A stretch of DNA of 64,000 nt from Rhizobium sp. BK376 (GTDB lineage Bacteria; Pseudomonadota; Alphaproteobacteria; Rhizobiales; Rhizobiaceae), in NCBI RefSeq assembly GCF_004341625.1, contig NZ_SLZG01000009.1:1-64000 (forward strand). The letters run 5' to 3'. The notes under the pieces are model-generated. The model was not told where the DNA came from and made no database searches. It saw only the letters and a program-made list of their open reading frames with translations. The position numbers and the translations under genes were made by a program. Positions 963 to 51,832 of this stretch are shown one piece after another (within the stretch, counting starts at the first letter, position 1; each line of letters begins with the position of its first letter).

Positions 963-2207
963 TCAGAGCGCCTTCAGCAGCGATTGCGTCGCCCATCCGT
1001 CTGCGGGAAGGCCCAGGCGCTGCTGCTCTTTCTGGATGGCGACGCGGGTGCCGGAGCCGAGGATGCCGTCGATCTCGCCGACATCGTAGCCGCGCGCCTG
1101 CAGCTTGGTCTGCAGCGCCTTCATGTCGACATCGCTCAGACCCTGCTCGGGCGTGCCCTTGTCATAACCGGGTGCTCCGGAAAGACGCGTCGCAAAGTAG
1201 GCGGCCGATGTCGTGTAGATGAACGACTGGTTCCATGCCAGGTATGCGTTGAAGTTGGGATAGGTCAGGAAGGCAGGTCCCATGCGGCCCTGGGGCAGGA
1301 TCAGAGCGGTCTGCAGGTTGCCGAAGGACGTATTGCCGTCGCGGGGCTTCACACCGAGATTGAACCAGTCCGCCGCTGTCATCGTACCGCCAATACCCGA
1401 TTTCTCGTAGGGCAGGCTGGCGGGCAAGGTGACTTCCTGAAGCCAGGGTTGGCCGCGCTGGAAGCCGAGGCTCTGGATGAACTTGGCGGTCGTCAGGATG
1501 ACGTCAGGAGCGCTTTCCTTGAGCTTGATGTGGCCATCGCCATCACCATCTTCGCCGTAAGTGAGGATAACCTTGGGCACGAGCTGCGTCTGGCCGATTT
1601 CGCCGGCCCATGCGCCTGTGGTCGTTGCCGGATCGACATCGCCGAGCTCAACTAGCTTCGTGAGCGCGATAAGCTGCGGACGGAAGAAATCAGGCCGGCG
1701 GCAATCGTGGGAAAGCGTCACAAGCGAATTGCGGATATTGAAATTGCCCTGGACGGCGCCGAAATCGGTTTCCAGTCCCCAGAAGGCGGTGATGACGCCG
1801 GCGGGCACGCCGTAATCCTTCTCGGCCTTGGCAAAGACATCAGCATATTGCTGCATTTTCTTGCGGCCGATATCGAGCCGCGCCTGGCTGACCGCCCGCT
1901 GGGAGAATTCGAGGAAAGTCTGCTTGAAGACGCCCTGGGCGCGGTCCATGGACAGGGTCTTCTGGTCGATCTGGACGCCTGCAAAGGTGCGGTCGACGGC
2001 CTCAGGGCTTGTGCCCGCAGTAACGGCTTCCGTCTTGACGCCGGCGAGGAAGGCGGAGAGATCACCGCCGCAGGGAGCCTTGGGCGCGTTCGCATCGGCG
2101 CCCGCCGGGGCTGCCGTTGAAGATGCGTCCTGAGCGACGGCTACACCCGATAATGCCGAGGCAAGCATGATCGCGAATGCGGTGCGTCGAATGGTTAAAC
2201 GGTCCAT
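963..2207 (-). CDS. Lytic murein transglycosylase (MltB/SLT_2 family) with peptidoglycan-binding domain
   Basis: Periplasmic enzyme that cleaves the MurNAc-GlcNAc bond of peptidoglycan non-hydrolytically, leaving 1,6-anhydro ends. I chose the ATG at 2207 rather than an upstream one at 2267 because an AGGA ribosome site precedes it and the N-terminus then becomes a clean signal peptide (MDRLTIRRTAFAIM...GVAVA, cleavage near residue 25). The SLT_2 domain covers about residues 45-330, with the family motif GLETDFG placing the catalytic Glu near residue 146, and GQTQ downstream. A PG_binding_1 domain (GYDVGEIDGILG) occupies the C-terminal 65 residues. It is the first of several wall hydrolases here, followed downstream in the same orientation, after a short gap, by the region of the GH25 gene's promoter side. 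Confidence 0.9.
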   Translation of the reverse strand: MDRLTIRRTAFAIMLASALSGVAVAQDASSTAAPAGADANAPKAPCGGDLSAFLAGVKTEAVTAGTSPEAVDRTFAGVQIDQKTLSMDRAQGVFKQTFLEFSQRAVSQARLDIGRKKMQQYADVFAKAEKDYGVPAGVITAFWGLETDFGAVQGNFNIRNSLVTLSHDCRRPDFFRPQLIALTKLVELGDVDPATTTGAWAGEIGQTQLVPKVILTYGEDGDGDGHIKLKESAPDVILTTAKFIQSLGFQRGQPWLQEVTLPASLPYEKSGIGGTMTAADWFNLGVKPRDGNTSFGNLQTALILPQGRMGPAFLTYPNFNAYLAWNQSFIYTTSAAYFATRLSGAPGYDKGTPEQGLSDVDMKALQTKLQARGYDVGEIDGILGSGTRVAIQKEQQRLGLPADGWATQSLLKAL

Positions 2208-13996: not shown

Positions 13997-14395
13997 GCCA
14001 GTTGGCCGGGCAGCCGCGCTTCACCAATGCCGAAAGGCGGTGAGGGGAGGAAAGTCCGGGCTCCACGGAAACACGGTGCCGGATAACGTCCGGCGAGGGC
14101 GACCTCAGGGAAAGTGCCACAGAAAGCAAACCGCCCGGTCCATCGGATTGGGTAAGGGTGAAAGGGTGGGGTAAGAGCCCACCGCGTCTCTGGCAACAGC
14201 GACGGCACGGTAAACCCCACCGGGAGCAAAACCGAATAGGGATGACGTGGTGCGCGCAAGCGCTCCAGCCCGTTTCCGGGCCGGTCATCCGGGTGGGTTG
14301 CACGAGGCGGCGCGCAAGCGTCGTCCCAGATGAATGGCTGCCACGTTCCGGTTCGCACCGGAGCCATACAGAACCCGGCTTACAGGCCAACTGGC
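13997..14395 (+). ncRNA. rnpB: RNase P RNA
   Basis: Catalytic RNA that matures tRNA 5' ends. The ends pair as the P1 helix: GCCAGTTGGCC (13997-14007) with GGCCAACTGGC (14385-14395). The universal core is present: GAGGAAAGTCCGGGCTCC (P3/P4 5' strand, about 14044-14061) and ACAGAACCCGGCTTAC (P4 3' strand, about 14368-14383), with AAAGTGCCACAGAAA and GGGTAAGGGTGAAA (CR regions) between. The length and the GCGCGCAAGCG hairpins suit alphaproteobacterial type A RNA. The exact 5' and 3' ends are inferred from P1 and may extend a few bases. Confidence 0.95.
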
Positions 14396-14538
14396 GAATT
14401 ATCTCTTGCCCCCGTGGTTGTCACCAGACCTCCGGCGCAACTTCGGAAAGCCCGCTGAAATTCGCGGCCTTTCCCTTTGAATACAGGGCCTTGCGGTTCC
14501 AAAGCGAAGCTCATTTCGGAGCGATCGCCAAGCTGATC

Positions 14539-48483: not shown

Positions 48484-49362
48484 TTGAGTGAAATCCGCCT
48501 TTATGTGACGACCACCGAAAAGAAGGCCGAGGAGATATTGGATCTCCTGACGCCCGTTTTCGAGGATGAAGATTTCCCCATCGCGACGACCGAAGTCGAC
48601 GAGAAAAAGGATATCTGGGAAGCCTCGGTCTATCTGATGGCTGACGAGGAAGACGAGATTCGCGCCCGGTTCGCCGAGGTTCTGAAAGACGGCTTTTCCG
48701 ATCTCTTCATCGAAAAGGAAGTCATTCCGGATATCGACTGGATCGCAAAGTCGCTCGAAGGCCTGAAGCCCGTACGGGCAGGGCGGTTCCTCGTCCACGG
48801 CTCGCATGATCGCGGCAAAGTGCGCTCCAGCGATATCGCCATCGAGATCGATGCCGGCCAGGCTTTCGGCACCGGCCATCACGGGACGACGGCGGGCTGC
48901 CTGGAAACGATCGAGAATGTGCTGAAGAGCCGGCAGGTGCGCAACGCACTCGATCTCGGCACCGGCAGCGGCGTATTGGCGATCGGCGTGCGTAAGCTTA
49001 AGGATATTCCGGTCCTTGCGACCGACATCGACCCCGTGGCCGTCCGCGTGGCCCGGGAGAACGTTCGACGCAACGGCATTGCATCGGGCATCACGATGGA
49101 AACGGCGCCGGGCTTTCACTCGACCTCCTTCTCCCGGCACGGCCCCTTCGACCTGATCATCGCCAATATCCTTGCACGACCGCTGATCAAGATGGCGCCG
49201 CAGCTCGTCGCGCATCTGGCGCCGAGCGGCTCGGTCATTCTGTCGGGCATCCTCGCCAGCCAGCGCTGGAAGGTGCTGTCGGCCTACAATGGCGCGAAGC
49301 TGCGGCATGTCCGCACGATCTGGCGCAACGGCTGGGTGACGATCCATCTCGATCGTCCCTGA
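48484..49362 (+). CDS. prmA: Ribosomal protein L11 methyltransferase PrmA
   Basis: Trimethylates L11. 292 aa; SAM motif ALDLGTGSGVLAIG, NPPY-like region replaced by IANILARPLIKMAPQL as in PrmA, and FGTGHHGTT upstream of motif I, which is diagnostic. It starts with TTG at 48484 (no ATG in frame nearby), giving the MSEIRLYVTTTE start. The ribosome site is weak, GAACGAAG. Confidence 0.92.
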   Translation: MSEIRLYVTTTEKKAEEILDLLTPVFEDEDFPIATTEVDEKKDIWEASVYLMADEEDEIRARFAEVLKDGFSDLFIEKEVIPDIDWIAKSLEGLKPVRAGRFLVHGSHDRGKVRSSDIAIEIDAGQAFGTGHHGTTAGCLETIENVLKSRQVRNALDLGTGSGVLAIGVRKLKDIPVLATDIDPVAVRVARENVRRNGIASGITMETAPGFHSTSFSRHGPFDLIIANILARPLIKMAPQLVAHLAPSGSVILSGILASQRWKVLSAYNGAKLRHVRTIWRNGWVTIHLDRP

Positions 49363-49401: not shown

Positions 49402-49545
49402 ATGCAAAAGGCGGTGCCATTGGCACCGCCTTGCAGATCAGTCTTTGCTGATCTAACCCGCGAGCTAGGAGGAGGAGCGCTCAAGCGGGTTCTAGCGTTC
49501 AGATCGTTGGGCCGGCGAGGGAGGAGGAGAGCCAGACCTTCGACT
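49402..49545 (-). ncRNA. Cuckoo (alpha-r14 / CcsR-type) small RNA
   Basis: On the minus strand this 3' UTR/sRNA carries CCTCCTCCC (49527-49519), the exact motif of cuckoo RNAs, and a second run CTCCTCCTCC in the loop of a hairpin whose stem is AACCCGC (49491-49485, minus) with GCGGGTT (49461-49455), extended by GAGC/GCTC. Next come a 7-bp hairpin AGATCAG/CTGATCT (49454-49435) and a terminator: 10-bp arms at 49410-49430 followed on the minus strand by TTTTGCATTTT. The anti-Shine-Dalgarno runs, three hairpins and a length of about 140 bases match the family. It begins right after the DUF1127-like stop, as in Rhodobacter CcsR loci. Exact 5' end not known. Confidence 0.8.
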
Positions 49546-49548
49546 TTA

Positions 49549-49716
49549 TTAGAACGCGTAGCTGTTTACGCCCTTGTGGCGAATATCACCGCGGCTTACG
49601 CCGATCATTCTCGACGTTTCAGCTTCGAGATGACGAAGCGCGCCGATTACATGGCGCACAGTCCGGCGTTCGCCAGCCTGCGCAGGGCTGCTATATGCGA
49701 ACCGAGAGTTGGCCAT
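49549..49716 (-). CDS. DUF1127-like small basic protein
   Basis: An uninterrupted minus-strand frame of 55 codons from the ATG at 49716, with AGGA about 7 bases before it (a nearer ATG at 49722 would add two residues). The product begins MANSRFAYSSPAQAGERRTV, is rich in Arg and His, and its core, VIGALRHLEAETSRM then IGVSRGDIRHKG, resembles the DUF1127 helix (LxxLsdreLxdIGLsRsDI). DUF1127 proteins are short, basic and often RNA-linked; CcaF1 of Rhodobacter binds RNA and affects maturation of the CcsR sRNAs encoded just after it. The identical arrangement here supports coding status. A GGGCT/AGCCC hairpin lies just upstream of the ribosome site and could regulate translation. Confidence 0.7.
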   Translation of the reverse strand: MANSRFAYSSPAQAGERRTVRHVIGALRHLEAETSRMIGVSRGDIRHKGVNSYAF

Positions 49717-49993: not shown

Positions 49994-51832
49994 ATGTTCC
50001 AGTCTTTTGACGTCACTTCCACCCCGCAATTCGGCCCTGAACGCGTCGCCGGCCTCAGGGCCGCTTTTGCTGCGCTCGGCATAGATGCCTTTCTGGTGCC
50101 TCGCGCTGATGAATTTCAGGGCGAATATGTGCCGGCCTGTTCGGAGCGTCTTGCCTGGCTCACAGGCTTCACAGGGTCGGCCGGTGTTGCTTTGGTGACA
50201 CAGTCGCAGGCTGTGGTTTTTGTCGATGGACGGTACACGACGCAGCTCGTCGAGCAAGTCGACCAGACGGTGTTCACCGGCGGCGATCTCGTCAACGAAC
50301 CTCCGCATGTGTGGCTCACCAACCATGCGCCGACGGAACTGAAGCTCGGCATCGATCCGTGGCTGCATACGGGCGCCGAAGTGCGCCGCCTTGAAAAAGC
50401 GCTGGGCGAGATCGGTGGCTCGCTGGTATTCCTTCCGCACAACCCTCTCGACCGGCTTTGGAAGGATCGGCCGGCCGAGCCGTTGGGCGACGTCATCATC
50501 CAGAACGTGGCGCAGGCAGGCATCCTTGCCACCGACAAGCTGACCGTCATCGCGCAGCAGTTGGAGAAGAAGAACCTCGCGGCCGTATTGGTCACGGATC
50601 CATCTTCGGTTGCCTGGATCTTCAACATTCGCGGCAATGACGTGCCGCATACGCCGCATCCGCTGGCACGGGCGATCGTCTATGCGACAGGCAAGGCCGA
50701 TCTCTTCCTCGACAAGCGCAAGACGCGGATCGAGGCCGAGGCCTATCTCGGGCAGATTTGCGCCCAGCTTGAGCCTTCCGAGCTTTCCGCGCGGCTGTCG
50801 GCGATCTCTGCCGGGGGCGGGCGCATTCTCGTCGATCCCGATCTCTGCGCCTATGCGGTTACCGACCTGATCCGTCGCGAGGGCGGCGAGGTCGTCGAAG
50901 GAACGGATCCGGCCAAGCTGCCGCGTGCACGCAAGAACGCCGCAGAACTTAACGGCTCGGCTGCGGCGCATTTGCAGGACGGCGCGGCCATGGTCGAATT
51001 CCTCTATTGGCTCGAGACCAGCAAGCCGGGCACGGTGAGCGAGATCGCTGCCGCCCAGAAGCTGGAGGCAGTCCGCGCCAAGGTCGGCAGGGACATGCAG
51101 AACCCGCTCAAGGACATCTCCTTCGACACGATTTCAGGTGCCGGAGATCATGGTGCCATCATCCACTACCGCGTCACGACCGCGACGGACCGGCCGCTCA
51201 ATCCGGGCGAGCTCTATCTGGTCGATTCCGGTGCGCAATATATCAACGGCACGACCGACATCACCCGCACGGTCGGGATCGGCAGTTCGGTACCGGAAGA
51301 GCAGCGGCAGTTCTTCACGCTGGTGTTGAAGGGCATGATCGCTATCAGCACCGCGCGCTTCCCGAAGGGCACGCGGGGTTGCGATCTTGATCCGCTGGCG
51401 CGCATCGCGCTCTGGAAATCCGGTGCCGACTATGCCCATGGCACTGGCCACGGCGTCGGGTCCTATCTCTCGGTGCATGAGGGGCCGCAGCGTATTTCGC
51501 GGTTGTCGACGCAGGAACTGCTGCCCGGCATGATCCTCTCCAACGAGCCCGGCTACTACCGTCCCGGCAGCTTCGGCATCCGTATCGAGAACCTGATCTA
51601 TGTTCGCGACGCCGAGGAGATCGAAGGCGGCGACATGGCCATGCTCGGCTTCGAGACGCTGACCTATTGCCCGATCGACCGCAGCCTCGTCATTCCGGAA
51701 CTGCTGACGCATGAGGAGCTGCATTGGCTCAATGATTACCATGCCCGCACCCGCGAAGCGCTTATGCCATTGATCCATGATCATGACATCCGCGCGTGGC
51801 TTGAGAATGCCACCCTGCCGCTCAGTTTCTGA
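49994..51832 (+). CDS. pepP: Xaa-Pro aminopeptidase (aminopeptidase P, M24B)
   Basis: Cytosolic metallopeptidase releasing N-terminal residues next to proline. 612 aa, the long three-domain form: two creatinase-like N-terminal domains and a C-terminal pita-bread domain. Metal ligands are visible in LVDSGAQYINGTTDITRT (two Asp), HGTGHGVGSYLSVHE (His), NEPGYY (Glu) and a final IRIENL (Glu). Ribosome site weak. A hairpin overlaps its stop codon. Confidence 0.94.
   Translation: MFQSFDVTSTPQFGPERVAGLRAAFAALGIDAFLVPRADEFQGEYVPACSERLAWLTGFTGSAGVALVTQSQAVVFVDGRYTTQLVEQVDQTVFTGGDLVNEPPHVWLTNHAPTELKLGIDPWLHTGAEVRRLEKALGEIGGSLVFLPHNPLDRLWKDRPAEPLGDVIIQNVAQAGILATDKLTVIAQQLEKKNLAAVLVTDPSSVAWIFNIRGNDVPHTPHPLARAIVYATGKADLFLDKRKTRIEAEAYLGQICAQLEPSELSARLSAISAGGGRILVDPDLCAYAVTDLIRREGGEVVEGTDPAKLPRARKNAAELNGSAAAHLQDGAAMVEFLYWLETSKPGTVSEIAAAQKLEAVRAKVGRDMQNPLKDISFDTISGAGDHGAIIHYRVTTATDRPLNPGELYLVDSGAQYINGTTDITRTVGIGSSVPEEQRQFFTLVLKGMIAISTARFPKGTRGCDLDPLARIALWKSGADYAHGTGHGVGSYLSVHEGPQRISRLSTQELLPGMILSNEPGYYRPGSFGIRIENLIYVRDAEEIEGGDMAMLGFETLTYCPIDRSLVIPELLTHEELHWLNDYHARTREALMPLIHDHDIRAWLENATLPLSF

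Follow-up and report, generated by a model that had tools for sequence, protein, structure and literature searches.

The window, the whole 64,000-nucleotide stretch of Rhizobium sp. BK376 DNA that was analysed, contained a short minus-strand unit between prmA and the aminopeptidase P gene (pepP), made up of an activator box, a -10 element, a leader, a 55-codon open reading frame (ORF), two hairpins with anti-Shine-Dalgarno (aSD) motifs, a third hairpin and a terminator (Table 1). An earlier note on this DNA had described a 55-codon frame with a ribosome site, an aSD motif within 25 bases of the frame, a second one in a hairpin loop, two more hairpins and a T-run. All these elements were present: GAAAGGAA lay upstream of ATG 49716, the first motif was read as CTCCTCCTCCC (49529-49519), with its CCTCCTCCC starting after 21 bases, and the second as CTCCTCCTCC (49477-49468). 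Spacing to GAAAGGAA would favour the start at ATG 49716 over that at ATG 49722. The tiny DUF1127-like gene and the cuckoo-type aSD RNA behind it likely form one transcription unit.

Table 1. Position of the features of the minus-strand unit and of its flanking genes in the window.
Feature	Position	Strand	Basis or remark
prmA	48484-49362	+	flanks the unit; name assigned from the protein
Aminopeptidase P gene (pepP)	49994-51832	+	flanks the unit on the other side; name assigned from the protein
LsrB/VtlR-type activator box	49829-49806	-	core TGCG-N6-GCAT at 49829-49816, then GCCTCCCATG
-10 element CTATAT	49771-49766	-	conserved in the genus upstream alignment
Predicted transcription start	~49759	-	inferred from the -10 element
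5' leader hairpin GGGCT/AGCCC	49750-49735	-	upstream of the ribosome site
Ribosome site GAAAGGAA	49730-49723	-	sequence
55-codon ORF	49716-49549	-	ATG 49716, TAA 49551-49549; 57 aa if the start is 49722
Hairpin 1, loop with aSD CUCCUCCUCCC (49529-49519)	49544-49503	-	fold
Hairpin 2 (ACCCGC..GAGC / GCUCGCGGGU), loop with aSD CUCCUCCUCC (49477-49468)	49491-49455	-	fold and RNAalifold
Hairpin 3 (GAUCAG/CUGAUC), without aSD	49454-49435	-	covariation
Intrinsic terminator AAGGCGGTGCC/GGCACCGCCTTTT	49432-49406	-	covariation and fold
Whole 3'-UTR aSD RNA element (model R1)	49544-49405	-	R1, 126 bits

The ORF was matched by protein search (E ≤ 0.01) in 38 of 61 genomes: it was found in all 37 genomes of its own genus, the window genome counted in, and in one of 24 genomes from other families of the order, where the match is doubtful (E 1.3e-4, inside a 682-codon frame). 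Among 18 ORFs of the same length (153 pairs), differences numbered 2276 at third codon positions versus 842 and 900 at the other two, and the changed codons were 1361 synonymous and 1627 not. The ORF appears to be under constraint, though not a strong one. A shorter protein subtype (46-48 aa) was present in nine of 30 genus loci (L005-L009, L016, L017, L029 and L030), and TACGCGTTC, the end of the longer form, persisted past the stop in seven of these nine.

The window protein gave no Pfam match at E ≤ 10, PF06568 included, and at the same limit PF06568 was found neither in 17 genus proteins nor in 10 homologues from other genera; the locus was likewise absent from the 19 PF06568 matches (E ≤ 10) of its own genome. 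NCBIfam recognised neither the window protein nor the tested homologues. Matches to a first profile of the protein (A1) were obtained in 37 of 297 family genomes at E ≤ 0.001, and to a second one (A2) in 179 of 297 family genomes and 75 of 109 genera at E ≤ 1e-4, counted regardless of genomic place. The family consensus is MxxxFFRxAFxRxVxARERQVxRYVNGALLxLDDExLKxxGxSRxELRRxGxxSYxF, and the alignment of the window protein with it has no internal gaps.

Profile-to-profile comparison of the genus proteins with the wider homologue family gave 97.6% over 57/57 columns. The homologue family in turn matched a profile of eight DUF1127-type proteins, six from the window's genome and two encoded beside CcsR-type RNAs elsewhere, at 93% (score 36.2, against 18.7 for the best of 150 column shuffles), and the match covers the C-terminal L..LdD..L..iG.sR..i helix. 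The genus proteins alone matched the DUF1127 profile weakly (9%, score 18.6, the best of 150 shuffles reaching 16.0). In the first shuffle control four gap-rich shuffles scored 130-139, above the real scores, which is unexplained; when the control was repeated with a trimmed DUF1127 alignment, none of 450 shuffles exceeded 18.7. The small protein is thus best described, from these profiles, as a remote DUF1127 relative outside the Pfam family. The resemblance seen at the end of the frame holds as a remote one, profile to profile through the homologues, but not as a Pfam match. Viral contigs searched with the protein of the homologue L066 contained no relative.

The motif CTCCTCCTCC occurred twice in the window, both times at the locus (expected 0.15; one of 100 shuffles reached two), while the shorter CCTCCTCC is not rare there (four seen versus 2.2 expected). 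Two spaced aSD motifs were present in all 30 genus loci read, which had been fetched from the 38 matching ORF loci. CTCCTCC was found no farther than 110 nt from the ORF stop in 36 of the best 80 of 109 ORF loci; of 6444 control windows taken from these loci, 65 contained it. Chance CU-rich repeats were ruled out by the rarity of CTCCTCCTCC and by this enrichment next to ORF stops. The cuckoo motif CCUCCUCCC was exact in hairpin 1, hairpin 2 contained CCUCCUCCU (not the exact 9-mer), and neither hairpin 3 nor the terminator loop carried it.

The folding energy of the RNA stretch, -60.8 kcal/mol, was better than that of every one of 200 shuffles (z -4.65). RNAalifold was applied to 41 of 69 distinct sequences, near-copies and cut sequences being avoided; the consensus comprised hairpin 2, hairpin 3 and the terminator, and for 15 of its 24 pairs one or more of the 41 sequences had both partners changed. 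Hairpin 1 was absent from this consensus. When 66 full-length sequences were folded singly, the first aSD lay in a hairpin loop in 60 and the second in 58, compared with 24 and 27, respectively, of 330 shuffled-flank controls. Most of the 41 aligned sequences retain hairpin 2, CCGCTYGAGC/GCTCGCGG; in two sequences of Ciceribacter type, compensating bases replace it. The covariance model built from this alignment (R1) found a single copy in the window's genome, at 126 bits, the window sequence being among the 41 that built it; the next scores were 26.9 (the terminator on the opposite strand) and 19.0 (the next full-length match). R1 matches were present in 65 of 297 family genomes and 24 of 109 genera, with the window and a few loci in the model by construction.

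At the locus the ar14 model (RF02344) scored 22.8 bits (E 0.036 in 551 bases) against a gathering threshold of 58.8, and CcsR1 (RF02791, threshold 65.3) had no match at E ≤ 10; the relative L066 scored 22.3 bits with CcsR1. Five true ar14 copies, at 99-117 bits, are located elsewhere in the window's genome. No Rfam family matched any of ten RNA loci from other genera at E ≤ 0.1. With scores below threshold or absent, an assignment of the RNA to ar14 or CcsR, as these are delimited in Rfam, was rejected. The data point to a conserved, covarying, cuckoo-like RNA family of its own. In the relative L066 (RNA at 1358-1495, minus strand) the terminator loop also carries an aSD motif, giving three as in ar14, and L066 is a possible link between the two families. 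Since the RNA reaches no Rfam threshold and the protein none of Pfam or NCBIfam, library annotation would miss both parts. The only gathering-level Rfam match of the window was a bacterial RNase P RNA (RF00010, 316 bits) at 13998-14398 on the plus strand.

The cuckoo-type sRNA that had been proposed behind the gene is retained as a covarying RNA with aSD hairpins, though neither as ar14 nor as CcsR. Taken literally, the two results that the earlier note had named as speaking against it, a sub-threshold covariance score and no DUF1127 hit, were both obtained; the comparison of many genomes rescues both parts, because the homologues match DUF1127 profile to profile and the RNA family is conserved and covarying. 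A stem of at least 5 bp was found in 33 of 38 leaders versus 316 of 760 shuffles. The GGGCT/AGCCC hairpin noted at the ribosome site was present, but the translational control suggested for it was unsupported, because RNAalifold on the leaders gave no consensus pair at that hairpin.

In the upstream alignment a block TGC[AG]-N6-GCATGGCTCCCATGA was conserved, with its core 57-58 nt before the -10 element in 29 of 30 genus loci. The window box, TGCGTCTGCCGCAT, has the generic LysR T-N11-A form and is placed 58 nt before CTATAT, with a sigma-70-type core and in an NfeR1-like position. Counted from the predicted start, its core would span -70 to -57; for NfeR1, an LsrB site tested by EMSA, TGCA-N6-GCAT, is reported at -72 to -57 (PMC10746234). 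The window box has one mismatch each to TGCA-N6-GCAT (LsrB) and to GCAT-N3-TG-N3-T (VtlR), and exact TGCA-N6-GCAT was present in 27 of 29 genus boxes. For 65 of the best 80 of 109 ORF loci, the 250 nt preceding the ORF contained a looser box. The -35 element read by eye, CTGCCG, is weak, and a Rhodobacter-style heat-stress promoter was not found by eye at the locus.

The 24-base box pattern had four matches in the 7.68-Mb genome and the reversed pattern none. The four sites were the window locus, one of the five ar14 genes, the first gene of the ar15/AbcR pair, where the box starts 71 nt before the first ar15 (RF02345), and the inside of a 491-codon open frame; the other four ar14 copies were without a match. 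Only the AbcR match is independent, because the pattern was drawn up with the matching ar14 promoter already known. The neighbourhood of the AbcR pair (reductase gene, LysR gene with PF00126 and PF03466, ar15, ar15, ArsR-like gene) agrees with the order trxB-vtlR-abcR1-abcR2-arsR given in PMC7486931. LsrB is described as redox-responsive and as an activator of AbcR1 (PMC8844928) and of NfeR1 (PMC10746234). Because the promoter has an LsrB/VtlR-type box whose pattern is shared with an ar14 gene and the AbcR pair, the locus is likely switched on by LsrB and not by a heat-shock sigma factor.

Flanking prmA and pepP were found at 77 ORF loci of the best 80 of 109. Of the RNA loci in other genomes, the 29 with the highest scores were taken, four of them from the same genus, and 27 had both flanking genes. 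Three states occur at this position in relatives: ORF only, ORF with RNA, and RNA only. Within the same best 80 of 109 ORF loci, the RNA was present at E < 1e-8 in 42, 19 of which are in the model, and an RNA match was absent in 38, including Hoeflea, Chelativorans, Aquibium and Stappia. The 29 top-scoring RNA loci comprised 10 with the ORF (L209 weakly) and 19 without it even at E ≤ 10. In the RNA-only loci the box was located 116-180 nt before the RNA in the 18 of 19 readable by script; in loci with both parts it was 281-299 nt before the RNA in nine of 10, the tenth having been misread by the script and the offsets taken by hand. One genome with the RNA (G162) had a protein profile match on another contig, and in RNA-only genomes the protein may have been relocated elsewhere.

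A PrmA tree was calculated with 128 of 137 selected rows, after removal of two duplicates and of seven loci that contained too little of PrmA. The three states clustered on it, with 8 changes in all (ORF 4, RNA 4) versus a shuffled mean of 53.4. This tree was built quickly from a single gene and has long branches. Support is weak for 46 of the 115 inner branches, and those with good support require no more than one change for the RNA-only group; gain and loss cannot be told apart by the counts alone. If Stappia is placed outside, the states are most simply explained by an old ORF, a single gain of the RNA, up to four losses of the ORF and a few losses of the RNA. It appears that the RNA persisted after its gene was lost, and this may have happened several times. 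On balance, a slight preference is given to the view that an LsrB-driven small gene gained a 3'-UTR aSD RNA and that its coding part was lost in at least one lineage while box, RNA and terminator stayed, which would have left a stand-alone sRNA gene at the same spot. The RNA would then be seen at each step towards independence, and the LsrB circuit would have three aSD arms, AbcR1, NfeR1 and this one.

The interpretation that we favour, with reasonable though far from full confidence, is a single LsrB-activated unit that serves both as mRNA for the DUF1127-like protein and as source of a 3' aSD RNA blocking translation of its targets. The LysR-type regulator LsrB (VtlR) would bind the box and activate a sigma-70-type promoter, yielding a predicted mRNA of about 350 nt whose 5' part encodes the 55-aa protein and whose 3' part is the structured aSD RNA with its terminator. 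By analogy with CcsR1-4 (PMC8625941), the RNA part is probably freed by cleavage after the stop codon, and the full mRNA could also be active uncut. The two CU-rich loops would pair with the Shine-Dalgarno sequences of putative target mRNAs and block their translation, as reported for AbcR1 and NfeR1, beside which the RNA may work within the LsrB circuit. It is argued to act in trans and to need no protein in cis, because it stands alone elsewhere.

The CcaF1-CcsR model in full, with an RNA-binding small protein that acts together with RNase E to mature the RNA from its own 3' UTR, is considered unlikely here but of some weight. Such maturation is published for Rhodobacter sphaeroides (PMC10253847, PMC8625941), and the profile-to-profile link of the protein family to DUF1127 fits it. 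The order and spacing are also those of L191 (G376:C1:245431-245837), where four tandem CcsR-type RNAs (44-52 bits versus the Rfam threshold of 65.3) follow a 72-aa ORF, of DUF1127 type by eye, that ends 18 nt before the first aSD. Against this model, the RNA dispenses with a protein in cis at the 19 RNA-only loci (at least one of these genomes, G162, having a match elsewhere), and the weak match of the genus proteins alone to DUF1127 counts the same way.

The single LsrB-activated unit would read differently if its box were bound by another LysR-type regulator, or if the promoter needed a stress sigma factor like that of ccaF1, which we regard as improbable. The weak -35 element leaves some room for this, and T-N11-A boxes are generic for LysR regulators. 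On the other hand, motif and position equal those of the NfeR1 site tested with LsrB (PMC10746234), and the AbcR box match adjoins a LysR gene whose neighbours are arranged as published for vtlR. More improbable is that the protein is the product and the aSD hairpins a cis element, acting in stability, in termination or in autoregulation, an aSD motif pairing with the AAGGA site of its own gene: the protein profile is wider than the RNA (179 versus 65 of 297 family genomes, the former counted regardless of synteny) and the 38 ORF loci without an RNA match fit a protein-only product, but the persistence of RNA and terminator in 19 loci without the ORF, with the box in the 18 readable ones, is unexpected for a cis element of that ORF. 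Least probable of all is that a small gene acquired a degenerate copy of ar14 (NfeR1) behind it, since, although the loop motif is common to ar14 and the ar14 model gives 22.8 bits in the window, 24.3 in L076 and 39.3 in L066 (with an aSD in its terminator loop), hairpin 2 was not seen in the five ar14 copies and R1 scored 17-20 bits on three of them and 9.9 on a fourth, with no match at the ar14 position of L032, against 126 in the window.

With the dual mRNA and aSD RNA unit as the preferred reading, the locus can be placed among described systems. CcaF1-CcsR1-4 of R. sphaeroides, or CIN1, shares with it a short DUF1127-type gene, close aSD hairpin RNAs and an end terminator, but is reported with four RNAs and an RpoHI/RpoHII promoter (PMC10253847, PMC8625941), whereas the window locus has one RNA with two aSD hairpins and an LsrB-type box, a protein outside Pfam and relatives with the RNA only. 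ar14/NfeR1 is similarly cuckoo-like, with aSD motifs in hairpin loops and LsrB activation of NfeR1, but is described as a stand-alone RNA with three aSD hairpins (PMC10746234), and within the window's genome the ar14 and R1 models score unconvincingly on each other's members. AbcR1/AbcR2 (ar15) likewise carry aSD motifs, with AbcR1 under LsrB/VtlR (PMC8844928), but have no coding gene in front and belong to another Rfam family.

Small genes under a similar box are the VtlR-activated atu1667, BAB1_0914 and BAB2_0512 (PMC7486931, PMC12595884). Those of Brucella are called DUF1127, VtlR and DUF1127 being joined in PMC12595884, and the Agrobacterium authors left open whether atu1667 acts as protein or RNA. 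No locus named atu1667, BAB1_0914 or BAB2_0512 was among the best 80 of 109 ORF loci. The present locus makes testable whether LsrB/VtlR-activated small genes such as atu1667 are protein and RNA genes at once. Additionally, the origin of bacterial sRNA genes is an open question, and one promoter and neighbourhood showing gene only, gene with RNA and RNA only in related species makes gain and loss datable and testable.

The DUF1127-cuckoo association itself has been published before (CIN1, CcaF1-CcsR): DUF1127 genes beside CcsR-like RNAs are named CIN1 in PMC10253847, and RNAs with varying numbers of aSD hairpins were grouped in 2011 (PMC3927594). In the accessible text of the papers retrieved by literature search, none joined LsrB/VtlR, DUF1127 and an aSD 3'-UTR RNA; as far as these papers show, the LsrB-type box at such a locus, the protein family missed by Pfam, the separate RNA family and the RNA-only state are new, and the RNA-only form may already be named in published sRNA lists. 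Another loose DUF1127-cuckoo neighbourhood is that of the ar14 gene L032 (G000:C1:38607-39841) of the same genome, which has two DUF1127 genes above the Pfam cut-off within about 1 kb downstream.
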